This document shows, one piece after another, positions 18,924 through 55,992 of a stretch of 64,000 nucleotides of DNA. Below the pieces are notes generated by a model. That model saw only the letters and a program-made list of their open reading frames with translations, ran no database searches and had not been told where the DNA came from. The translations under genes were made by a program, and so were the position numbers. The stretch's first letter is position 1. Every line of letters starts with the position of its first letter. This stretch comes from Oscillospiraceae bacterium (GTDB lineage: Bacteria; Bacillota; Clostridia; Oscillospirales; Acutalibacteraceae), in the NCBI GenBank assembly GCA_910574995.1, contig CAJTCS010000008.1, positions 1 through 64,000 on the forward strand, in the 5' to 3' direction.

Positions 18924-18943
18924 AGGGGATTTAGCGGGGAACA

Positions 18944-19036
18944 TCAGCCCAGCAAGCCGGACAGCAGGGGAACCAGGGTAATGCCGATCAGGGCCACCCC
19001 TCCCCCGGCGACAAGCTGCTTGACGCCCTGCGATTT
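18944..19036 (-). pseudogene. Maff2 family protein, C-terminal half (cut by IME1)
   Basis: Reading leftwards from the IME1 end, the frame gives KSQGVKQLVAGGGVALIG followed by LVPLLSGLLG and a stop. This is the second transmembrane half of a Maff2 protein. The first half is at 28733-28857, beyond the insertion. Joined across the insertion the gene reads ...DNPGS-KSQGVKQ..., a normal Maff2 of about 75 residues. Maff2 proteins are small ICE membrane proteins (VirB2-like position) next to VirB6. Confidence 0.85.
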
Positions 19037-19118
19037 TGCTCATGTGAGATAAAGAAGTAAAAGAAGTGTAAAAAATTTTGCCGTTCCCTGTCCGGCTGAC
19101 TGCCGGACGGGTCGGGCT

Positions 19119-20741
19119 TTAGTCGGGCAACTCTACCTTGCCGACAAAAGAGTAATAGATTTCGATTTCCTGTCTGCGGAGCTTCCCCCGGCGTTTCCCG
19201 TCAAGGGCTTCCGATTCGTGGATAACGATTTTCTCCACAAACTCCCGTAACAGGGTAGGGGTGAGTTCCTCAAAGCTGGTGTACTTGCGTACCACTTTCA
19301 TAAACTTTTCAGCGTTTGCCGTGGCTTCCAGTGTCCTTGAAAGCTCGCCCTGCAGAACGGCGGCACGTTCTTTCAGTTCCTTTTGCTCGGCTTCGTAGTC
19401 TGCCGAAAGCTCCGTGAAACGCTCGTCCGATATGCGCCCGGTCACGCTGTCCTCATACAGCCGCTTGAAGATAGCGGAGAGTTCCGCAATCCTTTTTTCT
19501 GCCGCTTCCAGCTCTTTCTTCTTGGCGGCGTTCCGGCGTTTGCTCCCGTCCTCGGTCTGCTCGGTCAACAGCTTCATAAACCGGGCTTCGTGCTTGGTGG
19601 CGTAGCTGGTGACTTTCCGTAGGTTCTCGGTCACGCCCTCGGTCAAGAGGTCGGTGCGGATAAAGTGCGCCGTACAGTCTGCCGTGCGCTTCTTGTAGCT
19701 GCCGCATATGTAGCAGTCCTGCCGCCGTTTGTCCGTCTGATACCTCTGTTGGTACATGACGCTGCCGCAGTCGGCACAAAAGAGTATGCCGGAGAACAAG
19801 CCCACTTCATCATAGCGGTTGGGGCGTTTGCGCTGCTTGCGTAACTCCTGCACACGCTCCCATGTGTCACGGTCTATGATTGGCTCGTGGTGGTTCTCAA
19901 AGACTGCCTGTTTTTCTTTGGGGTTCTCCTTGCTCTGCTTTACCTTGTAGGACACTTTCTCGGTCTTGAAGTTCACAAGGCAGCCCGTGTACTCCCGGTT
20001 TTCAAGGATATGCGCCACGGTGTTTGTCGCCCATTTGCACTCATAGCCGGGGTGGTAGCGGCGTGTGCTTCCCGTCCGGCGGTATTCCAGCGTTCCCGGC
20101 GTGGGTGTCTGCTGCTCCGTGAGCATACGGGCTATCTTGGTCGGACCGTTCCCGGCAAGGCAAAGGCTGTAAATCTGCTTCACCACGGGGGCGGCTTCCT
20201 CGTCAATGATGAAATTTTCGTCCTCGTCCATGAGGTAGCCGTACACGGGCTTGCTTGTGACGGGCTTCCCGCTCATGCCTTTTGACCGTTTCACGGCTCT
20301 GATTTTCTTGCTCGTATCTCTCACCAGCCATTCGTTAAAAATGTTACGCAAGGGGGCAAAATCGTTGTCGCCCTGTGCGCTGTCAACGCCGTCATTGATT
20401 GCAATGAAACGGACGCCGTTCTGTGGGAAAATCATTTCCGTGTACATTCCCACTTGCAGATAGTTTCGCCCTAACCGTGACATATCCTTTACGATAACCG
20501 TTCCCACAAGCCCCGCTTCAATGTCGGCAAGCATGGACTGGAAGCCGGGTCTTTGGAAATTTGCCCCGGAGAATCCGTCGTCCGTGTACCATTTGAGGTT
20601 GGAAAAGCCGTTCTGTTTTGCGTAGGCTTCCAGGATTCGCTTCTGGTTGCTTATGGAGTTGGATTCGCCTTGAAGCGTGTCCTCGTGCGACAATCTCGGA
20701 TAAAGGGCGGTAATGAGTTTTTGGGTGGTCTGTCTTGGCAT
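19119..20741 (-). CDS. Large serine recombinase of IME1 (TnpX-like)
   Basis: A 540-residue serine recombinase. The resolvase domain starts ITALYPRLSHEDTLQGES with the catalytic serine in PRLS, followed by SRLGRNYL and [10 protein letters not shown] recombinase domain (about 170-280), a zinc ribbon (CADCGSVMYQ, CYICGSYKK) and a long C-terminal coiled coil follow. It ends YYSFVGKVELPD only about 70 bases from the element end, the usual arrangement for TnpX/TndX-type enzymes, which insert and excise without host factors. ATG 20741 has GGAGG at good spacing. The matched Maff2 insertions of IME1 and IME2 suggest it is site-specific for that gene. Confidence 0.92.
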   Translation of the reverse strand: MPRQTTQKLITALYPRLSHEDTLQGESNSISNQKRILEAYAKQNGFSNLKWYTDDGFSGANFQRPGFQSMLADIEAGLVGTVIVKDMSRLGRNYLQVGMYTEMIFPQNGVRFIAINDGVDSAQGDNDFAPLRNIFNEWLVRDTSKKIRAVKRSKGMSGKPVTSKPVYGYLMDEDENFIIDEEAAPVVKQIYSLCLAGNGPTKIARMLTEQQTPTPGTLEYRRTGSTRRYHPGYECKWATNTVAHILENREYTGCLVNFKTEKVSYKVKQSKENPKEKQAVFENHHEPIIDRDTWERVQELRKQRKRPNRYDEVGLFSGILFCADCGSVMYQQRYQTDKRRQDCYICGSYKKRTADCTAHFIRTDLLTEGVTENLRKVTSYATKHEARFMKLLTEQTEDGSKRRNAAKKKELEAAEKRIAELSAIFKRLYEDSVTGRISDERFTELSADYEAEQKELKERAAVLQGELSRTLEATANAEKFMKVVRKYTSFEELTPTLLREFVEKIVIHESEALDGKRRGKLRRQEIEIYYSFVGKVELPD

Positions 20742-20870
20742 AATGTCCTCCATTTCCGACAGCCAGCCCCACTATTCCGTATGTTTATTATACCATAGGG
20801 CGGGGCTGGCTGTACAGTCTTTTTTGCTTCTTTACCGCCCGTCAAAATGACGGTTTTTATCTGCGGGTTG

Positions 20871-21062
20871 TCATGCGCTGTAAATCGGCTTGTGTCCGGC
20901 TGCGCTTTCGGCTTCCAGCACTTTCATCATCTTGTCGGCGGCGGTGGCGGTAGTGCCTTGTTTGAAATAGCCGGAAACCACAAGGACGGTGTTCCCCCGG
21001 CGTACTTCTGTCACGCAATCCGGGCGGCGGGTGGGGCGGTCTTTTTTCATGGTGTCGGTCAT
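20871..21062 (-). CDS. tnpW: TnpW family transposon-encoded protein
   Basis: A 63-residue basic protein (MTDTMKKDRPTRRPDCVTEV, then GNTVLVVSGYFKQG and a helical end with ADKMMKVLEAE). The beta-strand plus helix pattern fits TnpW proteins of Tn4451-like elements, which lie next to the recombinase and have no proven role. ATG 21062 overlaps the DnaC-like gene stop (ATGA) and has an AAGGAG site eight bases upstream. Confidence 0.7.
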   Translation of the reverse strand: MTDTMKKDRPTRRPDCVTEVRRGNTVLVVSGYFKQGTTATAADKMMKVLEAESAAGHKPIYSA

Positions 21063-21913
21063 AGGCAAATCTCCTTTCCGTTCAGCAGCTTTTTAAGGCG
21101 TTCCATTTTCTCCCTTGCTCTGGCTTTTCTGAAATTTTCCCCGGTAATGCGGACGGGGGTACACATTTCTGTAAGGCGGTCATAAATGCGGGCGTGGGCG
21201 GTGTCCTCCGGGTTCTGCAATTCCTCCAGCGTCAAATTTGTGGTGACAATCAGCGGCTTTTGGCTGCGGTATCGGCTGTCAATCACGTTATAGACTTGCT
21301 CTAAGCCATATTCCGTGCCACGCTCCATGCCGAAATCGTCAAGGATAAGCAGAGGGAAGCTGCAAAGGCGGGCTATGTACTCGTTCCTGTCCTTGTAGCT
21401 GGCGGCAAGGTCGTTGAGTATCAAGGCAAAGTTTGTCATGCACACGGAAACCTCTTTCTCCATAAGGGCATTGGCAACACACCCGGCAAAATAGCTTTTG
21501 CCTGTGCCGACATTCCCCCACAAAATCAATCCATAGTTCCCGGTGCTTACCCGTTCCCATTGCTCCACATAGGAATAGGCTTTGTGCATTTGGGGGCATT
21601 TCCCGTTGTCGTTTTCAAACGTCCATTCCCGCATAGCCGGGTCTGTAAATCCCTTTCGTTTCAGCCGTTCCACTTCCTCCCGGTGCTTGTATTCCCGGTG
21701 GCTGGCTTCCAGCGTTTCCCGGCGTTTGCGCTGGCAGTCACATTCTTTCGGGTGGCGGTCACGTCCGAAAAGGTTTTTCCCCTCGGTGAAGTAGGCTTCT
21801 TTGGGCTGGCGGCAGCTCCCGCAGTACAAAAGCCCGTCCTCGCCCGTGTAGTCCTCCGGCTGTGGCTCTGCTTCTGTGGCAAGCCGGAAAATGGCGTTAT
21901 CATAATCACACAT
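21059..21913 (-). CDS. DnaC/IstB-like AAA+ ATPase (helicase loader)
   Basis: A 284-residue protein with an N-terminal zinc-finger-like cluster (LYCGSCRQPKEAY, ECDCQRKRR) and an AAA+ core: Walker A GNVGTGKS near residue 134, Walker B LLILDDFGMERG, and sensor-I TTNLTLEEL. This is the DnaC helicase-loader type. Next to a replisome-organizer gene, it suggests that the excised IME can replicate autonomously by loading the host helicase, and the DnaA-box palindrome at 28487 would suit this. ATG 21913 has an AAGGAGG site. It is coupled to TnpW by a 4-base overlap. Confidence 0.85.
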   Translation of the reverse strand: MCDYDNAIFRLATEAEPQPEDYTGEDGLLYCGSCRQPKEAYFTEGKNLFGRDRHPKECDCQRKRRETLEASHREYKHREEVERLKRKGFTDPAMREWTFENDNGKCPQMHKAYSYVEQWERVSTGNYGLILWGNVGTGKSYFAGCVANALMEKEVSVCMTNFALILNDLAASYKDRNEYIARLCSFPLLILDDFGMERGTEYGLEQVYNVIDSRYRSQKPLIVTTNLTLEELQNPEDTAHARIYDRLTEMCTPVRITGENFRKARAREKMERLKKLLNGKEICL

Positions 21914-21975
21914 AAAATCGTCCTCCTTGTTCATGGTCTTTTACGCCCTGTTTACGGGGCGTTGTGTCTATGCGG

Positions 21976-22740
21976 TCAAAGGCTCTCGCCCTCTTTGTAG
22001 GAATAATCGGGGATTCCTTTTTTCGGCTTCCCCTTTGCCTTGTCATCAGCCGCCCAACGCCGGATAGTGGCGGCATGGTTCTTGTATTTCTTCCCGCTGG
22101 AAGCGATATAGCCGGATAAGCGGTCTATGTAATACTCCCATTTGCCGGGAAGTTCCTCTTGCAGCTCCGCAAGCTCTTTTTCTGACAAAAATACGTTTTC
22201 ATATCTGCCAAAAGGGGCGGGGGCTGTCTGTCCTTTCTTTAGCTCTCCCTCTCTCTTTATCTCTAACTCTATATCTATCTCTTTCTCTATCTCTATCTCT
22301 GGTGGACAAATGTCCGCCCCGTCTGGTGGACGTTTGTCCGCCACGGCTTCCGGCAAGGCTTTCTGTTCCTGTAAAGCCAGCCTTGCACGGCGTTTCCTCT
22401 CCCCCTCGGTAGAGGACTGACCGATTAAGAGTTCTATGTTGCTCATGTACAAAGCCCCATTCTGCAAGGGTTCTACAAGCCCCAGTTTCATAAAAATCTG
22501 CAAAGCCCTTTCTACTGTGCCGACTTGCTGGCGGGTGATGGTGGCTATCATCTGTGCGGTGTAGGGGATATTCTCGGCAAGCTGGAGCTTTCCCCCGTTT
22601 TTCAGCGATTTTAGGTACATCTTCAAGAGAATGTTTGAGTAGAGCATACCGTCCTGCATACTTTCCAGCAGCACGATAGCGTCCTCGTCAAAATAGCTCT
22701 CTTTCAGCTTTAGGTAGTAATATTTGCGGTTGTCTGCCAT
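21976..22740 (-). CDS. Phage replisome organizer / DnaD-like replication initiator
   Basis: A 254-residue protein. Residues 1-120 form the phage replisome organizer N-terminal winged helix (YYYLKLKESYFDEDAIVLLE, RQQVGTVERALQIFMKLGL). A variable acidic linker follows, then a C-terminal DnaD-like helical domain (WEYYIDRLSGYIASSGKKYK, AATIRRWAADD). It probably binds the element origin and recruits the DnaC-like protein encoded next. The linker (around residues 145-167) is encoded by a run of CTATCT-like hexamers at 22255-22310, so its length could vary by slippage. It starts at ATG 22740 with GGAGG. Confidence 0.8.
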   Translation of the reverse strand: MADNRKYYYLKLKESYFDEDAIVLLESMQDGMLYSNILLKMYLKSLKNGGKLQLAENIPYTAQMIATITRQQVGTVERALQIFMKLGLVEPLQNGALYMSNIELLIGQSSTEGERKRRARLALQEQKALPEAVADKRPPDGADICPPEIEIEKEIDIELEIKREGELKKGQTAPAPFGRYENVFLSEKELAELQEELPGKWEYYIDRLSGYIASSGKKYKNHAATIRRWAADDKAKGKPKKGIPDYSYKEGESL

Positions 22741-22854: not shown

Positions 22855-23241
22855 TTACGGGGGTTTGGAATATCCTAAAGCGTGACATTTATCCCTCTGT
22901 TTCCGCTTGCGCTGTGCGGCTCTGATTCTTTTCATGCGTCCGGCGCAATCCGGGCAGTATTTCCCCCGGTTTGACTTGGGGAGAAAATAGCCGCCGCACT
23001 CGGTACAGCGTTTCCTGTCTGCCCGGTGGAGTAGGGCGGCTTCCAGTTTCCCGTCCAGCGGCAGCACGGCGGCTATGAACCAGCGGCATATAAGCGAATA
23101 GCTGATACTCTGGACGCATACGCAAGGCTCGCCGTTATCCAGCAAGATACAGTTGCCGTTATCGTAGTTGCAGCACTCATGCACAAGGCGGCGGGCGGCT
23201 CTGTGTTGCTGGTAGTCCATGTATGGGCGTTTACCGTTCAT
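22855..23241 (-). CDS. Cysteine-rich VLP domain protein
   Basis: A 128-residue protein (start MNGKRPYMDYQQHRAARRLV) with an N-terminal Cys-rich part (HECCNYDNGNCILL, EPCVCVQS) and a C-terminal zinc ribbon (CTECGGYFLPKSNRGKYCPDC) followed by a basic tail. It matches the Cys-rich VLP family found in Gram-positive IMEs just after the relaxase gene; its function is unknown, possibly DNA binding in relaxosome or copy control. ATG 23241 lies inside the end of the relaxase gene, overlapping it by 11 bases. Confidence 0.8.
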   Translation of the reverse strand: MNGKRPYMDYQQHRAARRLVHECCNYDNGNCILLDNGEPCVCVQSISYSLICRWFIAAVLPLDGKLEAALLHRADRKRCTECGGYFLPKSNRGKYCPDCAGRMKRIRAAQRKRKQRDKCHALGYSKPP

Positions 23242-24871
23242 TTTCCCGCCCCTTTCCCCGTTCCGGCTCACGGCGCAATATTTTGTCAAGATTGCTTTTC
23301 ACGGTCTGCAATTCCCGGACGTTCTCTTTCTTCTCCCGGTACTCGTTGTAAAGGGCGTTTTTCTCTTTGGTAAGCTGCTCAATCTCCGTTTGTAAGGTCT
23401 TGGAAGCTGGCAGTTTGGTAATGCCCTGTGCCTTGAAATACCGGGCGGCAGATTCGGAAATGATAAACTTGCTTTCGTGCTGCTCCCGGTAGGCTCTCCG
23501 GGCTTTCTCCGTTTTCTGCGCCCTAAGTCCATCACGGGCTGGCTTGGTCTTGATGTAGGCTAATAGCTGTTTCTGCAAGTCCTTTTTCTCCCGCAAGGTG
23601 CTTTCCACGGCTTTCAGCTTCCCGGTCACTTCATGCAGCCCGGCACTGGCGGCGGCAAGGGCGGTTTCCAGTTCCTCCGGGGAAGAAAAGCCGGATTCCT
23701 CGTAAACGCTCATGGTCGCCGCCATTTGCTTTAGATTGTGAACAGCCGCCCAGCGGTCATATCCTATACCCTTGCCCTCGGCTCGTTTCGCTTCCCGGTC
23801 TACCATGCGTTGTACTCCGTCATTTTTCGGGGCGTTTACAGCGGCTTTGTTGCGCTGTAAGCGGTCTTTTATGCTGCGGGGGTATTCCTGTTTGGGTAGG
23901 GGCGTTTCGGCGGCTCTGGCGGCGTTCTGTGCGTTTATGGTGAGTGCTTCCAGTACGGCGGCACGGTCAAAATCATCACCCAGTTTCCGGGCGGTGATGG
24001 GCTTCGTCCTGTCCGGCGTGAGATAGCTCAATCTCCCCCGGCTCTCTTTGACGGTCACGCCCTCCCGGAGCAGCAGAGAGGAAAAGTCGTCAAAGGTGGC
24101 AGCGGCGGCAAGGGCTTTCCGTATGGTCTTCCTTAGCTTTTCCTTGTCGGTTTCAAACTTGGTCTGTTTGGGCGGCTCTCCCGTGGCGGCTTGGGAAGCG
24201 TTCTCCTTATCCAGTGCGGCTTGTCCTTTCCGCTTCGCCCAATACTCACGCTCGGTAATGCGGTTCTTGCTCCCGTTCAGCAAGTCAATCTGATAGAGGT
24301 TTTCCCGGTGGCACATCTCCATGACTTCCGCTTTGAAGTATTCCATAGCTGCGTCCGTACAGCGGTACTTACAGCCCTCCCTTGTGTCCGCTGGTCTTTC
24401 CATGTACGGCAAAAGTGGTACTTCCGCAATCCGCAAAGAATTGATTACGATATGCACATGAATGTTGCCGCTGTGGTTATGCCCGTCCGGGTGGGTGCAT
24501 ACAAGGGCTTGGTGTCCGGGAAAATGTTCTTTACAGAACTGCTCGCCTAACTGTTGCGCCCGGTCAACCGTCAAGCCGTTGTCGGGTGCGTCACGGGGGT
24601 CAAAACTGATAATGTAATGGTGGCTTTTCACGTCCTCCCGTTTCTGGTTCTTGCCGTATTTCAGATTGGAGCGCATACACGCTATGGCGAAATCTTCCCC
24701 GCCGCAATTCAGAGAGGAAATGCGGTAATCGTCACGGGGGAGAAGCCGCCTATTTTTATCAAGGGTGGGCTTCATGGTAAACTCGTCATGCTCAAAAGTT
24801 AGGTACTGCTCGGCAGCTCCATAGTCGGCATTTTTAGAGCTGATATGTTTGAATGTTGCCAACGGCTTCAC
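23231..24871 (-). CDS. Relaxase/mobilization nuclease of IME1 (MOBP type)
   Basis: A 546-residue relaxase. The N-terminal nuclease domain has the tyrosine-containing start (KPLATFKHISSKNADYGA), the second motif and the metal-binding histidines (HPDGHNHSGNIHVHIVI, about residues 130-145). The C-terminal half is a long helical, charged region. It nicks oriT and pilots the strand into a conjugation channel. It begins inside the MobC gene (overlap 38 bases) and is followed by the Cys-rich gene. The same family is cut short in IME2, where only the nuclease domain remains. Confidence 0.9.
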   Translation of the reverse strand: MKPLATFKHISSKNADYGAAEQYLTFEHDEFTMKPTLDKNRRLLPRDDYRISSLNCGGEDFAIACMRSNLKYGKNQKREDVKSHHYIISFDPRDAPDNGLTVDRAQQLGEQFCKEHFPGHQALVCTHPDGHNHSGNIHVHIVINSLRIAEVPLLPYMERPADTREGCKYRCTDAAMEYFKAEVMEMCHRENLYQIDLLNGSKNRITEREYWAKRKGQAALDKENASQAATGEPPKQTKFETDKEKLRKTIRKALAAAATFDDFSSLLLREGVTVKESRGRLSYLTPDRTKPITARKLGDDFDRAAVLEALTINAQNAARAAETPLPKQEYPRSIKDRLQRNKAAVNAPKNDGVQRMVDREAKRAEGKGIGYDRWAAVHNLKQMAATMSVYEESGFSSPEELETALAAASAGLHEVTGKLKAVESTLREKKDLQKQLLAYIKTKPARDGLRAQKTEKARRAYREQHESKFIISESAARYFKAQGITKLPASKTLQTEIEQLTKEKNALYNEYREKKENVRELQTVKSNLDKILRREPERGKGRENER

Positions 24872-25229
24872 CTACTTTCTGCAAGACTTCAAACTTCAAG
24901 GCGGCAAGCTCCGCTGTGGCGGCTCGTACCTCTTGGGAGAGGGCGTTATAAGGTGCGCTGTACTCATTCAGACAGCGGGCAATCTGATTCAAGTTGCCGC
25001 CGATTTTCCCGTACTCGGTTGTGAGTTTCCCAACGGCAGATAATAATTCATCATTGACCGGGGAAACGGTGATAACCGGGCGTATGCTTGACTTGATAAG
25101 GGCTTGCCGGATAAACTCGGCTTGGCTCATTTTGCAGAGGGTGACACGCTCGGAAAACTCGGCGTATTCTTCCTCGGTCAAGCGTGTCTTGATTACCCGG
25201 TGACGGTGTGGCGTGTTGTATCTTTTCAT
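24834..25229 (-). CDS. mobC: MobC-like relaxosome accessory protein
   Basis: A 131-residue protein with an N-terminal ribbon-helix-helix type pattern (HRVIKTRLTEEEYAEFSERV, KMSQAEFIRQALI) and the conserved MobC domain (GGNLNQIARCLNEY). It helps the relaxase open oriT. ATG 25229 has an AAAGGAGG site; a longer upstream frame overlaps the conserved mob leader and lacks a ribosome site. It overlaps the relaxase gene. The IME2 homologue at 40951 is nearly identical. Confidence 0.88.
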   Translation of the reverse strand: MKRYNTPHRHRVIKTRLTEEEYAEFSERVTLCKMSQAEFIRQALIKSSIRPVITVSPVNDELLSAVGKLTTEYGKIGGNLNQIARCLNEYSAPYNALSQEVRAATAELAALKFEVLQKVGEAVGNIQTYQL

Positions 25230-25261
25230 GGCTGTGAACCTCCTTTCGTGGGTGGATTTTT

Positions 25262-25489
25262 TCAAGCGGCGCAAGCCGCAAAAAGGCGGGCTTGGGGTGG
25301 CAACCCCAACAAGATTCCCATAGGACAAAATGAGCGATTAGCGAAATTTGGTACTGTGGTAGAATCTTGCTCTAAGAAAGTGGCGGCTTCCTCTGTGTGG
25401 GCTTCCGTCAATACCTTTAGTGCCGCAAGCGGGGATTTTGCCAAAGCTGCGGCGATATTTCTCCCCCTACTACCTACAACACCACGCAA
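25262..25489 (-). other. Conserved mob-operon leader of IME1 (candidate oriT or small ORF)
   Basis: The 5' leader of the MobC/relaxase operon is strongly conserved in IME2 (about 40700-40915), including a GGGGTTGCCACCCC hairpin close to MobC. In IME1 it could encode a short peptide with AAALAKSPLAALKVL, but IME2 has a stop inside this frame and base identity is high at all codon positions. Conservation as DNA fits oriT better than a protein. Strand given is that of the operon. Confidence 0.45.
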
Positions 25490-25641: not shown

Positions 25642-25866
25642 TTATTCAGTTTTGATATATGGCTGTTCATCAAAGCGGAACTTGAACAGGGAAGCGACAA
25701 GCCGCTGTTTTATGCTGTCCTCGGTATCCCTGTCGATATGTCCGTTTTCAATGGCAGCTATCCGGATGCGCTTGCTGTAATGCCGCAAAACCTCGTCCAC
25801 GGCTTCCGGCTCTCCGCTGGTCGCCCGGACAATCGTTTCATAGGGCAAAAGATTCGGATTTCCCAT
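25642..25866 (-). CDS. Conjugative-transposon HTH protein (HTH_16 type)
   Basis: A 74-residue protein (LLPYETIVRATSGEPEAVDE, VLRHYSKRIRIAA, IDRDTEDSIKQRL) of the helix-turn-helix family found after sigma-like genes in Tn916/Tn4451-like elements. It probably acts with the sigma-like protein in expression of the element. ATG 25866 has GGAGG and lies inside the end of the upstream sigma-like gene (29-base overlap). The IME2 copy at 40256 differs by only a few residues. Confidence 0.75.
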   Translation of the reverse strand: MGNPNLLPYETIVRATSGEPEAVDEVLRHYSKRIRIAAIENGHIDRDTEDSIKQRLVASLFKFRFDEQPYIKTE

Positions 25867-26296
25867 GCGAAAGCACCTCCATTTTCCTTTGCAGGAGTTT
25901 TAACGTCCTGCGGATTATATACCCGGTCGTACTCCGGCAGCGTCCATACATTTTCCCGATTTCCTGTTGTGTATAATCCCCGAAAAAGTAAAGGAATATG
26001 ATTTCCCGGTTTCTCTCCAGCAAGGATAACAGGGCGGCGGCAAGCTCCCCATTGGTGAGGATAACGGTCTGACCGCATATCGTTATAGGGTATTCTTCAT
26101 AAGGTGCTTCAAAATATTCGTCTGTTGTGCCTAAAGGGTAAAACTTTTCTTCTGTGAGGTATTCAAGGGATATTTCTTTCTGCCGCCGTCTGCTCCTGTC
26201 ACGCCATGCGTTGAGTGCTGCATAGCGTATGACGGTCTTGCAAAAGCCGTTGAAGGTATACATGATGTGTTCCTTGTATGCTTCTGTGCAAGGCAT
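25838..26296 (-). CDS. Sigma-70 family (region 4) regulator of IME1
   Basis: A 152-residue protein that starts MPCTEAYKEHIMYTFN and has a C-terminal sigma region 4 helix-turn-helix (LERNREIIFLYFFGDYTQQE, IGKMYGRCRSTTGYIIRR). Such ECF-like or RpoD-like regulators are standard in these IMEs and probably drive excision or mobilization genes; no promoter target is visible. ATG 26296 has an AAAGGGGGA site. An IME2 homologue lies at 39826-40284. Confidence 0.8.
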   Translation of the reverse strand: MPCTEAYKEHIMYTFNGFCKTVIRYAALNAWRDRSRRRQKEISLEYLTEEKFYPLGTTDEYFEAPYEEYPITICGQTVILTNGELAAALLSLLERNREIIFLYFFGDYTQQEIGKMYGRCRSTTGYIIRRTLKLLQRKMEVLSHGKSESFAL

Positions 26297-26382
26297 AGGT
26301 GATTTCCCCCTTTCTCCCACATGGGCGTTTTATGGTTGACAGTTACATTTAATAATTCAGAGAAATAACAGCACGTAGTCTG

Positions 26383-27774
26383 TCATATCTTGAATATTGC
26401 AAAAAATATTTTGTATAAGCCTATAACCAAAAGCAAACTTGCATTTAACAGCAATACAATGAACAAGTCTTTTACAAAATACCATACTACCCATAATGGA
26501 ATACCTACCATATAGGGCAAACAGAGTAACAGTAGTGGCAATATGCCATGCCTTGTAATGTCAAAGAGTATCAGTCTTGTTGTCTGTTTCTTTTTCTTCC
26601 ATTTTCTTATTGTTGCTATCGGATATACTGCCACTGCAACCAACGCTAAATATGCTCCATTCAGCAACAGGTGTCTTACAATATACGGGCTGCCAGATAT
26701 ATCATATTGTTCTCTGCCCAAAAGAGCAAATATCACATTTTGGGAGATAATATCTGCCAGTTGATTCGTGACAAGATAATCGTTCATATTGATAAGGAAA
26801 ATGATTCCTAATCCGCTTTCCGGCAATAGATACATATTAGACATATAATTCTCAACCAGCCCTGAATGCCCCAATACAGGCTCTGTATATTCTTCTGTCA
26901 AAGTCCACCCCATTCCGTAATAATAGGGAGTGTTATCATCTACATATACATTGTCATAAAGCATAGTATTTAAACTATTCTGATTGACTATTCCCATTCC
27001 TCCATTTAGATACATTTGCAGATATTTTGCCATATCTGATACACTGGAACTTAAATAACCTGCCGGAACGGTAGACCATGAATGTTTATCGGGATAGTCC
27101 GGCTCTCCCGCAATCGGAAGTCCAAAATAATTTCGATATCCTGTTATCAATCCGTTTTCTTTGCTTTGTACAAGTGTTGCTGCCGTATGATTCATACTTA
27201 GTGGAGAAAAAATGTTTTTATCCATATACTCTGAATAGCTAATTCCGCTGACTGTTTCTATGATTTCTCCTAACAATCCATAATTGATATTTGCATATTG
27301 ATGTTGTCCGTAACTTTCTGTTATTTTTGCATTTCCAAAACGCTGATATATCCCTAAACCGCTTGTCTGATTCAAAAGCTGTCTTACAGTAATTTTATCT
27401 CCGTCGGACACATTTATAAAATAATCAGATGTATCAATATAATCAGATATTGTCGTGTCTAAATCTACTTTTTCTTCTTCCACAAGCTGCATAACAGCTA
27501 ATGCTGTAAATGATTTGCTCAATGAGCCTATAATAAAAGGCGTATCTAAATTATCGCAATTTCCATAAGCTTCAGAAAACAGAACCTCTTTAGAGTCTAC
27601 AATGGCTATCGCCATTCCGGGAATATGTAATTCCTTTATTTCTTTTTTTATCTGGCTGTCAATATCGCTATAATTGCTACTTTTTTCATATGCCAAAACA
27701 GGCTTATCCCATATAGCAATAACACAAATTAGTGACAGTATTACACAAATGATTTGCCTGATTTTTCGATTCAT
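26383..27774 (-). CDS. Membrane-anchored serine hydrolase (class C beta-lactamase/PBP4* fold)
   Basis: A 463-residue protein from ATG 27774. It has a signal peptide (ICVILSLICVIAIWDKPVLA) and an extracellular beta-lactamase-type domain with SxxK at Ser84-Lys87 (GSLSKSF), YxN at Tyr160 (QYANINYG) and a third box HSG (LGHSGLVENY). The C-terminal part has about three transmembrane helices. This is the serine hydrolase/D-aminopeptidase type rather than a proven beta-lactamase. An alternative ATG at 27819 overlaps the TetR stop. It is AT-rich cargo in a slot that in IME2 holds BlaI/M56 genes. The substrate, perhaps peptidoglycan or a peptide, is unknown. Confidence 0.8.
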   Translation of the reverse strand: MNRKIRQIICVILSLICVIAIWDKPVLAYEKSSNYSDIDSQIKKEIKELHIPGMAIAIVDSKEVLFSEAYGNCDNLDTPFIIGSLSKSFTALAVMQLVEEEKVDLDTTISDYIDTSDYFINVSDGDKITVRQLLNQTSGLGIYQRFGNAKITESYGQHQYANINYGLLGEIIETVSGISYSEYMDKNIFSPLSMNHTAATLVQSKENGLITGYRNYFGLPIAGEPDYPDKHSWSTVPAGYLSSSVSDMAKYLQMYLNGGMGIVNQNSLNTMLYDNVYVDDNTPYYYGMGWTLTEEYTEPVLGHSGLVENYMSNMYLLPESGLGIIFLINMNDYLVTNQLADIISQNVIFALLGREQYDISGSPYIVRHLLLNGAYLALVAVAVYPIATIRKWKKKKQTTRLILFDITRHGILPLLLLCLPYMVGIPLWVVWYFVKDLFIVLLLNASLLLVIGLYKIFFAIFKI

Positions 27775-27815
27775 AAAACCTTTTCCCTTGTTTTTTTCTG
27801 ATATACCATGCGCTA

Positions 27816-28385
27816 TCATTTCCCCTCTAATTTTTTTGCTCCCTCAATTAAAATGTCTATTGATAATTCAAAACTATCTTTTATCAACTGTGTATTACCA
27901 AAGGCGTTATGATTTTCAAGTAATGCAAAGCCCTCTAAAAAACTTCTAAACATTCTGACTAAATGAATGCAATTATCTTGTGAAATATTTAGTGACTTAG
28001 TTATTTTGAAAAAAATTGAAAACATTTTTGAAGTCACTTCATTCATCTGTTCATTCTCAAATTGATTGTACCAAAGCATTGTGCTAAAAACTCCTTGATT
28101 CTCTATTGCATATTCATGAAAAGCGTAGCACATAGCTCTAATCGCATCATATCCAGAAAATCCTATTACAGATTGAATAATTTTGTCTTCTAATTCTTTC
28201 CAACCATATAGCATAAGCTGCTGTTTTAGGTCGTCAAGCCCATCTATATGGTTATAAAGCGATGGCGACTTAACGCCTAATTGCGATGCAAGCGTTTTTA
28301 AAGATAGGTTTTCTATGCCTATCATATTTGCTATATATGCAGCTTCTTTGATAACCGATTCTTTATCAATTTTTATTTTCGGCAA
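27816..28385 (-). CDS. TetR family regulator
   Basis: A 189-residue TetR-type repressor. The N-terminal HTH is KEAAYIANMIGIENLSLKTL followed by ASQLGVKSPSLYNHIDGL; the helical C-terminal ligand domain has RAMCYAFHEYA. It overlaps the serine hydrolase start in an ATGA arrangement and is transcribed first from the promoter at 28421-28449, which overlaps a likely operator. It probably represses itself and the hydrolase until a ligand binds. The ligand is unknown. Confidence 0.88.
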   Translation of the reverse strand: MPKIKIDKESVIKEAAYIANMIGIENLSLKTLASQLGVKSPSLYNHIDGLDDLKQQLMLYGWKELEDKIIQSVIGFSGYDAIRAMCYAFHEYAIENQGVFSTMLWYNQFENEQMNEVTSKMFSIFFKITKSLNISQDNCIHLVRMFRSFLEGFALLENHNAFGNTQLIKDSFELSIDILIEGAKKLEGK

Positions 28386-28415
28386 AATAAAGCTCCTCCT
28401 TTTTTCTTAATCTAG

Positions 28416-28449
28416 TTTGTATTTTAACAAATTCAATTAGTTATGTCAA
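28416..28449 (-). promoter_or_regulatory. Promoter and operator of the TetR/serine hydrolase operon
   Basis: A perfect TTGACA (28444-28449), 17-base spacer and TAAAAT (28421-28426) lie on the minus strand, 36 bases before the TetR start. An inverted repeat TTTGT...ACAAA straddles the -10 box, a natural TetR-type operator. Confidence 0.75.
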
Positions 28450-28486
28450 GATATTAAGAATTGACAAGGGCTTCCGTAGTAGTCGG

Positions 28487-28634
28487 CATTGTGGGAATGT
28501 GTATAACTGGCTATCTCATGGAATTGTGGGTAACTCTGTTTGCAGGACGTGGGAAAGCTGCACTTTAGCTTTTCCATGTGCTGTGAATAGAGTTATCCAT
28601 GATTCCATAGCCAGTTATGCACATTTCCACAATG
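28487..28634. repeat. 148-base nested palindrome with DnaA-box-like sequences, IME1 copy
   Basis: The outer arms 28487-28514 and 28607-28634 pair over 28 bp with two mismatches. Middle arms (GGAATTGTGG.. and its partner, ending AACTCT/AGAGTT) and an inner stem (GGGAAAGCT/AGCTTTTCC) follow. TGTGTATAA at 28498-28506 and TTATGCACA at 28615-28623 both fit the DnaA box TTATNCACA. A homologous palindrome lies at 37363-37511 in IME2 with compensatory changes. It is about 90 bases from the element end opposite the recombinase. Origin function is inference. Confidence 0.7.
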
Positions 28635-28716
28635 CTTGTCTTTTGGTCTTTGGTTTCTTTGGTTCGGAATAGTGTGGTGCTGGCGGTCTATCTCTTGTTT
28701 TCGGTTGCTTGCTTCT

Positions 28717-28857
28717 TTACCGTACATGAGCATTGGAACCGGGGTTGTCCTGCCCGTAGCCCTCCAGGAGATTGATGCCGCCCCACACGCACAGGCCGCC
28801 GCCCAGGGCTACAACGAGGGTCTGCAAAACTTCGATCGCGCTGTTAAAAAACTCCAT
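28717..28857 (-). pseudogene. Maff2 family protein, N-terminal half (cut by IME1)
   Basis: The frame from ATG 28857 reads MEFFNSAIEVLQTLVVALGG, then INLLEGYGQDNPGS, and passes into IME1 after 28733, ending NAHVR and a stop at 28717. It is the N-terminal half of the gene whose remainder is at 18944-19036. The first transmembrane helix and GYGxDNPG box are intact. A 46-residue truncated product could still be made. Confidence 0.85.
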
Positions 28858-28901
28858 AAATCTACCTCCATAATTTCAGAAATGTTGTTGGATTTGCCGC
28901 C

Positions 28902-32416: not shown

Positions 32417-32462
32417 AAAAAAGCGGCGTTCCATCTTCCCAGCAGGGAATATGAACGCCGCT
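32417..32462 (-). terminator. Terminator/attenuator upstream of the ICE1 initiator gene
   Basis: A 10-bp stem (AGCGGCGTTC with its complement) encloses a second stem TTCCC-AGCA-GGGAA and is followed on the minus strand by six Ts. It lies 30 bases before the initiator start. It is either an attenuator of the ICE1 operon or the terminator of a lost gene. Confidence 0.65.
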
Positions 32463-32553
32463 CATGCGCCGATATTCGATTTTTTAGTACATATCATGCT
32501 TGTCCGCCGCTCGAAAACCTTGATTTTCCTATACTTTCAGAAGTTACGTTATC

Positions 32554-34031
32554 TAACCTCAGCTTTCAACCGCCCTTCGTTTAAGCGTCTGATTGCCGAC
32601 ATTGAAGCTGGGAAGGTGGGCTGCGTGATAACCAAAGACCTTTCAAGGCTTGGGAGGAACTATATTGAAGCGGGCAGTTATATCGAAATCTTTTTCCCAA
32701 AACACAATGTAAGGTATATAGCGGTCACGGACGGCGTGGACAGCCTGACAAGGCAGGAAATGGATATTACGCCGTTCAAAAATATCCTGAATGATATGTA
32801 CAGCCGGGATATTTCAAAGAAAGTGCTTGCCGGGCGCATGACACGCTCCCGTCAGGGGAAGTTTTGCGGCGGGCAGCCGCCCCTTGGCCTGATGCGTGAC
32901 CCGGAGGAAAAGGGACACCTTATCCTTGACCCGGACACTGCGCCGACTATCCGTAAAATCTATGACCTTGCCTTAAACGGCTGGGGGTGTATGCGGATTG
33001 CCAAACAGCTTATGGAGGATAAAATCCCCATCACACGGGTAAAGGGCAATACGGAATGTGACGTGAATTATTACTCATGGGGGAGCGCACGGATTAGCCA
33101 TATCCTGCGGAACCCATTTTATAAGGGGGCGCATTTAGTCTGCCGGACGCACCAGAAAGGAATCCGCTCCAACACCTATGACATCATTCCCCGTGAGGAA
33201 TGGGAAGTGCTTGAGGGCTGCCATGAAGCTATCGTAAGCCCGGAGGACTGGGAAAAGGTGCAGGAACTGATTGACCGCCGCCCGCCTATCATGGAGGGGA
33301 ACGCTTGCCCCTTCTACAACCTGTTCCACGGCATTATCTACTGTGCCACCTGTGGGAAGTCCATGCAGGTACGCTATGAGAAGGTGGGCAGAACCGGGAA
33401 GAACCGCTTTACCGGCGAGGAACGGGAGCCGATAGACAAGGCGTATTATATCTGCCAGACGTATAACCGGCTTGGGAAGAACTCCTGCACCAGCCATAAG
33501 GTGGAAGCGAGGGATTTGTACAACCTTGTGCTGAAGGATATTCAGGAACTTGCGGCAATGGCGTTGAAAGACGTGGAATCGTTCTACCAGCGGATCAGCA
33601 GCCGCATGGAGCGGCGGTATCTGGCGGACGCTTGGGAGATGGAGAAGGAACGGGAGCGGCTGGAAGCAAGGAACCGGGAGATTGACGATATGTTCCTGAA
33701 CCTGTATACCGACAAGGCAAAGGGAATCCTGTCCGAGCAGCGGTTTGTGAAGCTGACGGCGGCAATGGAGCGGGAACAGGAGGAAAACCAGAAGCAGCTA
33801 AAAGAACTGGCACTCTCCCTGCGCCGCTCCAACGAGCAGGAAAGTGATGTCCGCACCTTTATCCGGGAAATCAGGCAGTACGCCGCAGTCCGGGAACTGG
33901 ACGAGGGTATCTTAAACCGCCTTATCAGCCGGATTCTGGTGGGGGAGGTGAAAAAGGTTGACGGGGAGAAATTTCAGGAAATCAAAATCATTTATAACTT
34001 TGTCGGGGAGATACCGGCGGTAACAGAATAA
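32554..34031 (+). pseudogene. Large serine recombinase, N-terminal catalytic part deleted
   Basis: The recognisable protein begins FNRPSFKRLIADIEAG and then runs through SRLGRNYIEAGSYIEI, the recombinase domain, a zinc ribbon (YCATCGKSM, YYICQTY) and a coiled coil to NFVGEIPAVTE. The first 75 residues or so of the resolvase domain, with the catalytic serine, are absent. The upstream tract still has the AGTACATATCATGCTTGTC leader found before the recombinase at 52227, so the deletion is internal. It ends at a terminator at 34042. The gene is dead unless supplied with a serine domain in trans. Confidence 0.85.
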
Positions 34032-37280: not shown

Positions 37281-37362
37281 AGAAGCAAGCAACCGAAAAC
37301 AAGAGATAGACTGCCAGCACCACACTATTCCGAACCAAAGAAACCAAAGACCAAAAGACAAG

Positions 37363-37511
37363 CACCGTGGAAATGTGTATAACTTGCTATTCCGTCATGG
37401 AAAAGTCCGTTCACAGAACATGGAAAAGCTAAAGTGCAGCTTTCCCACATTCTGCAAACGGACTTTCCCGCAACTCCATAAGATAGCAAGTTATGCACAT
37501 TACGCACAGTG
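37363..37511. repeat. 149-base nested palindrome with DnaA-box-like sequences, IME2 copy
   Basis: Homologous to 28487-28634 in opposite orientation. Outer arms share TGTGTATAACTTGCTAT and ATAGCAAGTTATGCACA, including both DnaA-box-like words. Middle arms AAGTCCG/CGGACTT differ from the IME1 arms AACTCT/AGAGTT but still pair. The inner GGAAAAGCT...AGCTTTCC part is nearly unchanged. Confidence 0.7.
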
Positions 37512-37648
37512 CCGACTACTACGGAATCCACCCTATCTTTCATATCTTTTTATAAATTCTTAAATTTCCTTTAGGGTATTGCATTATCACCTACAAAGTG
37601 TTAAGATATTCATACACCCACAAAATGTTAAGGTAAAAGGAGGACAAA

Positions 37649-40699: not shown

Positions 40700-40918
40700 T
40701 TTGTAGGTATCAGAGGGAGAAATACCGCCGCTGCTTTGGCAAAATCCCCGCTTGCGGCACTAAAGGTATTGAGGGAAGCCCATACAGAGGAAGCCACCAC
40801 TTTTTAAGAGCAAGATTCTACCATAGTACCAAATTTCGCCTACCGGCTCATTTTGTCCTGCGGGAATCTTGTTGGGGTTGCCACCCCAAGCCCGCCTTTT
40901 GCGGCTTGCGCCGCTTGA
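40700..40918 (+). other. Conserved mob-operon leader of IME2 (candidate oriT)
   Basis: Counterpart of 25262-25489: high identity through the AAATCCCCGCTTGCGGCACT region and a GGGGTTGCCACCCC hairpin (about 40873-40886) before MobC. A TAA at 40805 interrupts the frame that is open in IME1, which argues for a DNA-level role. Confidence 0.45.
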
Positions 40919-52169: not shown

Positions 52170-54342
<2,173 letters not shown>

Positions 54343-54346
<4 letters not shown>

Positions 54347-55992
54347 ACTGCCTGCCTTTCCGCCACCAGAGCATCGTCCACATTGCCCACATAGCGGTAA
54401 AATACCTTGATGTCGCAAATGCGGAGATTGCCCTCTTTCCTGGCCTCGCCCACTTCAATACGGTCTACCAGCTCAAACAGGATGGTTTCATCCAGCTCGG
54501 TAATCTCGGTATAGCGGCGGATGATTCCGGCCCAGCGATCCGCGTCGTGGCGGTTTTCCAGCTGTGCCTGGACCCGGCGCTCCAGCTCCGGGAGGGCGGC
54601 GGCTTTCTGTGCCCGCTCCGTCTCATACTTCTGCATCAGGGTCTGGAAAACCGTCTGCGGGACCACGCCGGTACACTTATCCTCGTAAAGATTCTGCATC
54701 AGCCTTTCCAGCTCATGGACGCGGGCGGCGGTGACTTTCAGCTCCTGCTCACAGGAGGCCACCCGGCTGTGCTGTTCCTTATCCTTCATGCGGATGATTC
54801 GCGCCAGCAGCCGCTCCCGGTCATATTCGGCATACTGCGCCTTTTCTCGGATGTCCGCCAGAACAAGCTCCTTCAGAACGTCCTCGTAGATGGTATGGAT
54901 GGTGCAGGCGTTCTTGCCGCTGCGGGCGTAGTTGCCGCAGATGAACGAGCTGTACCGCCCCGGCCTGCCGTCCTTGTAGGTAAACCGCTCCACATGATTC
55001 CGCATTTTGAATCCGCAGTCCGCGCAGTAGACGAGGCCGGTGAAAATGCTTTTGATGCCGTCCGCCGTCTCGGACTTCCGCACCTTTTTCTGGTCAATGC
55101 TGACAACCGTATCCCAAATCTCGCGGGTGATGATCGGCTCATGGGTCCCCTCCACTCGAATCCACTGGTCCTTGGGCTTTGCCACCAGCTTCTTGGATTT
55201 ATAGGAGAGGGTCCCGCATTTGCCCTGGACCATGTTCCCGATATAGGCTTCATTGCGGAGCATGACCTTGACGGTGTTCTCGTTCCACAGGTGGTTGACG
55301 CGGCGGGGGTCGGTGCGGCCCTGGCGCTGGTAGTACAACTCACCGGGCGGCTGGATGCCCTCCGCATTGAGGGTGACGGCGATCTTTCGGAACGCCATAC
55401 CGGAGGCCCGCATTGCAAAAATGCGGCGGACCATGGGCGCGGTCTCCTCGTCGATGATGAAGCGGTGCTTGTCGGCGGGGTCCCGCTGGTAGCCGTAGGG
55501 GGCATGGGTTCCCATATATTTCCCGCTTTCCGCGCAGGCTTTCTTTACCGCCTTAACCTTTTTGCTTGTATCCCGGCTGTAAAATTCGTTAAATAGGTTC
55601 AAAAAGCACATAACATCGGTACTTCCATCATTGTTCATGGTGTCGATGCCGTTGTTAAGAGCAATGAACCGGCAGCCAATGGACGGGAACAGGTAGTCCG
55701 TATATTGGCCGAACTCAATATAATTTCTGCCGAACCGCGAGAGGTCCTTGACAAGAATCACATTGATTCGTCCCGCCTTCGCGTCCTCAATCAGCCGCTG
55801 AACGCCGGGGCGCTGGAAATTCGTTCCAGAGTAGCCGTCGTCGATGTAAGTGTCGATCTCGTTCCAGCCCCGCTCCCGGACATACCGTTGAAGCAGGAGC
55901 TTCTGGTTTTCGATGCTGACGGATTCCCCGTCGCGCTCGTCGTCGTTGCTCAGTCTGCAATAAATGCCGACATTGTATGTGTTCTCTGCCAT
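54343..55992 (-). CDS. Large serine recombinase, first of a coupled pair
   Basis: A 549-residue recombinase: AENTYNVGIYCRLSNDDERD with the catalytic serine, SRFGRNYIEFGQYTD, FIALNNGIDT, zinc ribbon (CADCGFKM, FICGNYARS), coiled coil, end FYRYVGNVDDALV. ATG 55992 has GGGAGG. The upstream continuation of the frame to 56517 overlaps TnpW and is not coding. Two complete recombinases in one operon recall CcrA/CcrB of SCCmec, where each enzyme has a separate task. Confidence 0.92.

Follow-up and report, generated by a model that had tools for sequence, protein, structure and literature searches.

A Strand-Asymmetric Hairpin Family in Mobile Elements of Clostridia: A Candidate Start Site for Complementary-Strand Priming

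The window, a 64,000-nucleotide stretch of a contig from an Oscillospiraceae bacterium, carries a palindrome of about 148 bases near one side of an IME, and this palindrome belongs to a family of hairpins that are directly observed to covary, to be strand-specific and to be distributed over several kinds of mobile elements. With a likelihood just short of even, the palindrome is a single-strand signal, most likely an sso/ssi-like priming start on the T-strand, and not a double-strand origin. Rolling-circle unwinding, or arrival in the recipient, would leave the T-strand (the + strand of the window) single-stranded, and the exposed + strand would fold into a hairpin of roughly 60 bp with fixed G.T wobbles and a short 5' tail, GYAGYAGT. 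Priming of the complementary strand would most likely start at this hairpin, either as an sso or as a primosome-assembly site, and would turn the transferred circle into double-stranded DNA.

How is the T-strand converted to double-stranded DNA in the ICEs and IMEs of gut Clostridia? As far as we found, this step has not been worked out, and in 2015 virtually nothing was known about the conversion for any ICE (PMC4595007, in the part of the text available). If the hairpin is the conversion signal, its sequence models (R1 and R2) offer a handle with which to find and test that step. A description of the hairpin was not found in the literature, which is weak evidence, since most subscription papers were beyond the scope of the search.

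The hairpin and its genetic setting

IME1 is inserted in maff2 of a Tn1549-like ICE and splits that gene, with a GC core on either side (Table 1). Read on the minus strand, the element runs from att through ~95 bp, the palindrome, a 20-bp border, cargo, a sigma-type gene, a small helix protein and oriT to mobC, the relaxase, a Cys-rich protein, the replisome organizer, the DnaC-like loader, the serine recombinase and the other att. It has the relaxase, the serine recombinase and the insertion within maff2 that mark a maff2-integrated IME, and the replisome organizer and DnaC-like loader that the original prediction had attributed to it are both present. IME2 is inverted and incomplete, a remnant in which relaxase and recombinase are fragments. 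Further serine recombinase genes or fragments at 32451-34031 and 52245-55971 point to more nested elements in the window.

Table 1. Coordinates of the hairpin elements and of the associated IME and ICE features in the window.
Feature	Position	Strand	Details
Hairpin element, IME1 copy	28472..28635	+ (folding strand)	5' tail TTCCGTAGTAGTCGG 28472-28486, stem 28487-28634
Hairpin element, copy in inverted IME2 remnant	37362..37526	- (folding strand)	
Conserved IME end	28636..28731	.	~95 bp, from hairpin to att core (GC near 28730) inside maff2
maff2, 5' part	28720..28857	-	host ICE gene, interrupted by IME1
maff2, 3' part	18940..19038	-	with the other att core (~19038)
Predicted IME oriT	25255..25390	+	predicted nick on + after 25369 (GGTAC-N-CTTG|CT)
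oriT motif, IME2 remnant	40800..40835	-	predicted nick 40811 on -
mobC	24834..25229	-	NikA-like
Relaxase	23231..24871	-	MOBP-type
Large serine recombinase, IME1	19119..20753	-	
DnaC-like helicase loader	21059..21934	-	
Replisome organizer	21976..22740	-	Phage_rep_org_N
Sigma-70 region-4 protein	25838..26320	-	conserved leader is the cargo boundary on that side
IME1 cargo	26383..28385	-	beta-lactamase-fold hydrolase and TetR-type regulator; most other copies have different genes here

The palindrome that IME1 and IME2 had been claimed to have in common is real, and both copies fold far better than shuffles. The IME1 copy forms one hairpin of -52.8 kcal/mol (z -14.25, with DNA parameters), equaled by 0 of 200 shuffles, and the copy at 37363-37511 reaches -36.8 (z -8.56 against shuffles) on its weaker strand. 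The arm words had also been read correctly, TGTGTATAA at 28498-28506 and TTATGCACA at 28615-28623, with the same pair in the second copy. Two points of the original prediction have to be revised: the palindrome does not lie at the IME end, the att core being inside maff2 ~95 bp further out, and the genome holds five copies instead of two. Distant members of the family, as read from the alignment, keep TGTGGGAA against TTTTCCA, in steps of 22-24 nt.

A terminator was considered and rejected, as there is no uninterrupted T-run directly 3' of the stem. A search of 28300-28900 against Rfam returned sub-threshold matches only, mostly to microRNA families.

Some hairpins have been altered. One-arm or internal deletions in L041 (10012-10133), L047 (9956-9990) and L075 (5938-6101) look like slippage between short repeats. 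At other loci (L043 8736-9060; L081-L089 5518-5990), the left base of the hairpin is interrupted or replaced by a segment of repeated ATCCAAACTT words, and words similar to these are also found in short hairpins of other IMEs.

Most IME copies have cargo of their own between hairpin border and sigma leader, 0.9-4.7 kb long (n = 21). To judge by the translations, many cargo segments start with a regulator of the TetR, BlaI, GntR or HTH type. The cargo range of these IMEs is wide and presumably includes a ribosomal-protection-like gene and an efflux-like gene, both named from their translations.

Covariation and strand asymmetry

The compensatory arm changes quoted in the original prediction hold across the 63 sequences of alignment A1, in which 99.0% of cells are paired, compared to 34-51% in slid controls. 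A formal covariation check on this larger set of copies found changes on both sides in 16 of 60 pairs (136 cells), a level that 0 of 500 shuffles reach. In the more diverse alignment A3 (21 members), 96.8% of cells are paired, double changes affect 14 of 50 pairs, and covariation is 0.315 versus 0.194; one of five measures, further pair types, was not above shuffles (77/500).

The remaining differences between the arms are distinctly one-sided. Over 62 copies in a strand-neutral alignment there are 642 G.T and 25 A.C cells. The IME1 arms have 10 and 0, respectively, and 19 of 20 further loci likewise have more G.T than A.C (2-16 vs. 0-3), the exception being the short hairpin of L060. Certain wobbles are near-invariant, for example those at columns 87/131 (63/63) and 76/142 (61/63). 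One strand folds better in all 65 rows compared (two of the 67 palindrome rows, with an N or a deletion, were left out), with means of -97 vs. -62 for RNA and -46.5 vs. -34.0 for DNA.

An element that acts at the duplex level or on both strands would give G.T and A.C alike. It is therefore on the + strand that the fold matters, whether that strand is single-stranded DNA or an RNA. Part of the wobble asymmetry could be mimicked by a C-to-T process with a strand bias, yet such a process would itself need an exposed + strand. In the short hairpins of some IME relatives, the other strand is slightly better, in 10 of 10 measured. Wobble asymmetry of this kind offers an easy way to tell which strand of a palindrome is the functional one.

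Distribution of the hairpin family

How widespread is the hairpin? Among 79 IME loci, taken from the best 80 of more candidates by IME relaxase and, to judge by their titles, mostly from mouse-gut Clostridia, 55 have the long palindrome, 6 have a short hairpin only, 7 have the maff2 side without either, and in 11 this side is out of view. A covariance model built from the 63 sequences detects the family in 14 of 394 genomes of the order, and a second model, with diverged members added, in 12 of 395 genomes of the family, 7 of 393 of the class and 3 of 378 of the phylum, the window's own genome being counted each of the four times. The phylum-wide search gained two weak matches only (39.9 bits).

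The diverged copies sit in Tn1549-like ICEs. Their position relative to the relaxase varies, from 415 bp downstream in the L188-type ICEs to 9 kb; in IME1 the hairpin lies 3.1 kb out, on the leading side. In genome G498, six members (L206-L211) are carried by an IS240-like insertion sequence (~1.97 kb, ends GGTAGTGTCAAAA), in which they lie between the transposase and the right end. These hairpins are on the coding strand, 3' of the transposase. Such copies cannot use conjugation, and the hairpin is either a signal with a wider single-strand role or a passenger picked up by the insertion sequence.

Among 72,556 plasmid records searched by blastn, there was no match to the palindrome beyond its last dozen bases, and two exact patterns had no match in viral_contigs. 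An 82.7% match to the palindrome and the IME end is found at 2707-2992 of MT839717.1, a "Bacteriophage sp." record from human feces that may be a mislabeled mobile-element fragment. The short-hairpin relatives L056-L060 have an IME end in common with plasmids H1-H9 of Limosilactobacillus, Lactobacillus, Cutibacterium and Corynebacterium.

Which strand is transferred?

In the diverged ICEs, an inverted repeat and TGTGCTTG|CTA lie just upstream of mobC, on the strand opposite to relaxase coding. The nic site of Tn1549 is RYGCTTG|C (PMC7755788), and since the word in the diverged ICEs fits it, the nick is placed on the strand opposite to the relaxase coding strand. The IME oriT, on the + strand of the window, has the same layout, with GGTACTGTGGTAGAATCTTG|CTCT. 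More broadly, the motif GGTAC-N10..13-CTTG|YT has 120 matches in 2.69 Mb of loci that are in part redundant, versus 8 in shuffled DNA. Other nick-like words occur on the opposite strand of the IME oriT region, and pCF10 provides a counter-geometry, the nicked strand being the relaxase-coding strand in some MOBP elements. A nick on the relaxase-coding strand, as those words might suggest, would speak against transfer of the folding strand; the diverged oriTs and the GGTAC-N-CTTG motif favor the other strand instead. By homology, the folding strand (window +) is predicted to be the transferred strand of the IME.

With the nick so placed, 49 of the 50 close copies with an oriT motif no more than 8 kb away have it on the folding strand, as do the ICE loci whose own oriT was read (12 of 12), although these counts are mostly not independent, because flanks are shared, and amount to about seven separate placements. 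The 50 exclude 12 of the 62 close copies, which have no motif within 8 kb, and four of the 49 agreeing copies are ICE copies whose nearest motif belongs to a neighboring IME. In L130, the sole close copy with its nearest motif on the other strand, the hairpin and the oriT seem to come from different elements. The 12 ICE loci are L185, L186, L188, L191-L194, L205, L217 and L218, plus L187 and L189 via L231 and L232, which were fetched later; in the first 10 the motif is upstream of mobC, and it is on the folding strand in all 10. L190 agrees when judged by its relaxase strand; its single motif match lies at 10 kb and on the other strand. In the short forms L214 and L220, a match ~5 kb away is on the folding strand and may be due to chance.

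The five ICE copies located between virD4 and maff2 are a different matter, since in the four examined the folding strand is the complement of the T-strand that the relaxase-linked oriT would give. They agree only with a second, inverted oriT, in 4/4 cases (L223, L225, L235, and L234 with L224), an agreement that is post hoc, covers four of the five such ICEs (not L140) and takes a relaxase and a hairpin tens of kb apart as parts of one ICE. The two inverted motif copies are ~9-11 kb apart (L223 2256/10707, L225 4772/13672, L235 5085/13932, and L234 4461 with L224 8666). The six IS240-like copies have no oriT, and there is no T-strand there.

A priming site on the transferred strand

What does the hairpin do? 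The original prediction had offered, among other things, a single-strand origin used after transfer. That suggestion is supported by the strand-specific folding and by the folding strand being the predicted transferred strand in most placements, the function itself being a proposal; the priming role, and a protein that would recognize the hairpin, are what we infer. A priming site has to be on the right strand but can otherwise be placed freely, and since the positions vary and the strand relative to oriT is mostly constant, an sso or ssi is favored. The L188-type hairpin, 3' of the relaxase, counts for an sso because sso1 of ICEBs1 also lies downstream of nicK (PMC4595007). The loci with the maff2 side and no hairpin (7/79) and those with a short hairpin only (6/79) count against it.

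Like sso1 of ICEBs1 and the sso of rolling-circle plasmids, the hairpin is non-coding and folds in an orientation-specific way, in most placements on the strand that is predicted to become single-stranded; like sso1, it lies just downstream of the relaxase in the L188-type ICEs (PMC4595007). On the other hand, sso1 has three stem-loops instead of one hairpin of roughly 60 bp, and, unlike an sso (PMC4595007), the hairpin has no sigma-70-like sites in its stem, no sigma-70 promoter being present there in the 75 copies scanned. Nor did the blastn search of plasmids reveal similarity to a known sso. A more specific and doubtful proposal is that the hairpin defines a new ssi family, a wobble-rich ~60 bp hairpin with a GYAGYAGT tail that would assemble a primosome without RNA polymerase. 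In such a family, the fixed G.T pairs would allow the transferred strand alone to fold and leave the duplex an imperfect palindrome, and its members would be spread over Tn1549-like ICEs, maff2 IMEs and an insertion sequence in Clostridia.

Other explanations

It is unlikely that the + strand gives rise, antisense to the IME genes, to a structured non-coding RNA that forms a long hairpin. G.U pairs and tandem UG/GU steps kept on one strand are what would be expected of an RNA helix, and the IS-borne copies would be coding-strand hairpins 3' of a gene, the transposase. Promoter-like sites on the folding strand (at least 9/12 matches, at most 110 nt upstream) are present in 33 of the 75 flanks (28 of the 65 that are distinct), versus 29-31% of shuffles. 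However, the mean best upstream site is barely over that of shuffles (8.31 vs. 8.15-8.18), the opposite strand of the same flanks is higher (39/75, mean 9.00), and the sites are at scattered distances, 13-85 nt from the hairpin. Moreover, variable cargo makes up the IME flank as far as the 20-bp border, a terminator-like hairpin lies immediately upstream in type-B loci, and no Rfam family reached threshold. The excess of promoter-like sites and the reversed bias of the short hairpins slightly lowered the likelihood given to an sso and raised that of an RNA.

It is improbable that the palindrome is a mobile or recombination signal, a REP-like or attC-like single-strand hairpin that aids cargo exchange with the 5' GYAGYAGT as a guide. 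Different cargo does lie just beyond the hairpin border in most IME copies, right flanks change at or a few bases from the stem end (L042, L043, L048, L049), and copies occur in an insertion sequence and at several ICE positions. However, ICEs that lack the virD4-maff2 copy have a replaced segment and not a clean empty site, the six G498 copies travel with their IS, and no second family hairpin was seen at the sigma side in the cargo ends of 21 IME copies. That the hairpin had inserted cleanly between virD4 and maff2 was likewise rejected, the alignment showing a replaced segment.

There is little probability that the hairpin is a Frpo/ssi-type single-stranded promoter that drives cargo genes from the incoming strand. 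The Frpo/ssi promoters of F and ColIb-P9 are also long hairpins of the transferred strand in the leading region (PMC11541004); the present hairpin is on the predicted T-strand and adjoins cargo in the leading region, and ColIb-P9 has the same gene layout around oriT. Cargo genes mostly use that strand as template, as do 34 of 45 distinct first ORFs, a count that leaves out 17 of 62 rows (15 repeats, one without an ORF and one with a short flank) and includes ICE copies and doubtful ORFs. However, the first cargo ORF is not always on the template strand, 11 of 45 being in the other direction, and the stem, unlike that of Frpo in the accessible text of PMC11541004, is without -35/-10 elements: a pair with at least 9/12 matches is found in neither arm (0/75, vs. 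8.5% and 4.0% in shuffles). The mean best score is 7.24 for the 3' arm (shuffles 7.44) and 7.13 for the complement of the 5' arm (shuffles 7.11), and on double-stranded DNA, promoter-like sites on the cargo side are above shuffles (9.35 vs. 8.62).

The double-stranded, DnaA-dependent origin of the excised circle that the original prediction had also put forward is unsupported and very improbable: 60 of 62 close copies have TTATNCACA (N being the variable position) in their right arm, and the replisome organizer and DnaC are encoded by the same IME as the hairpin, but TTWTNCACA is missing from 9 of 19 more distant members in which the hairpin stays, hairpin and rep genes are uncoupled, and one-strand G.T wobbles are not what a double-strand origin would select. 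The uncoupling goes both ways, since L057, L058 and L060 have replisome organizer and DnaC matches with only a short hairpin lacking DnaA-like words, and in the ICE loci L188 and L191 the hairpin occurs with no match to a replisome organizer or dnaC in 20 kb. Homologues keep the pairing (as in A1), but the DnaA-like words are not conserved among the distant ones. The ABC primosome is a hairpin carrying a DnaA box, and the close copies resemble it in having a DnaA-like word in a single-stranded DNA hairpin; unlike the ABC primosome, the distant members that lose the word retain the hairpin.

Relation to known maff2 IMEs

IMEs with such modules in maff2 are already known, namely IME_Rho_tet (PMC12904643) and IME_ScoC232_maff2 (PMC5704250), and it is the one-strand wobble asymmetry of the hairpin that is new. 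IME_Rho_tet and the maff2 IMEs are similar to the present elements in their relaxase, MobC and serine recombinase, in their integration in maff2 and in having cargo upstream of the mobilization genes (PMC12904643, PMC5704250), and IME_ScoC232_maff2 also has a replisome organizer and DnaC (PMC5704250). A word search for "palindrom" gave no hit in the accessible text of PMC12904643. The loci L057-L060, which were taken for that IME type, differ from the window's elements in having a short hairpin that is slightly better on the other strand. They carry a ribosomal-protection-like gene that is 69% identical to the ribosomal-protection-like cargo of L109.
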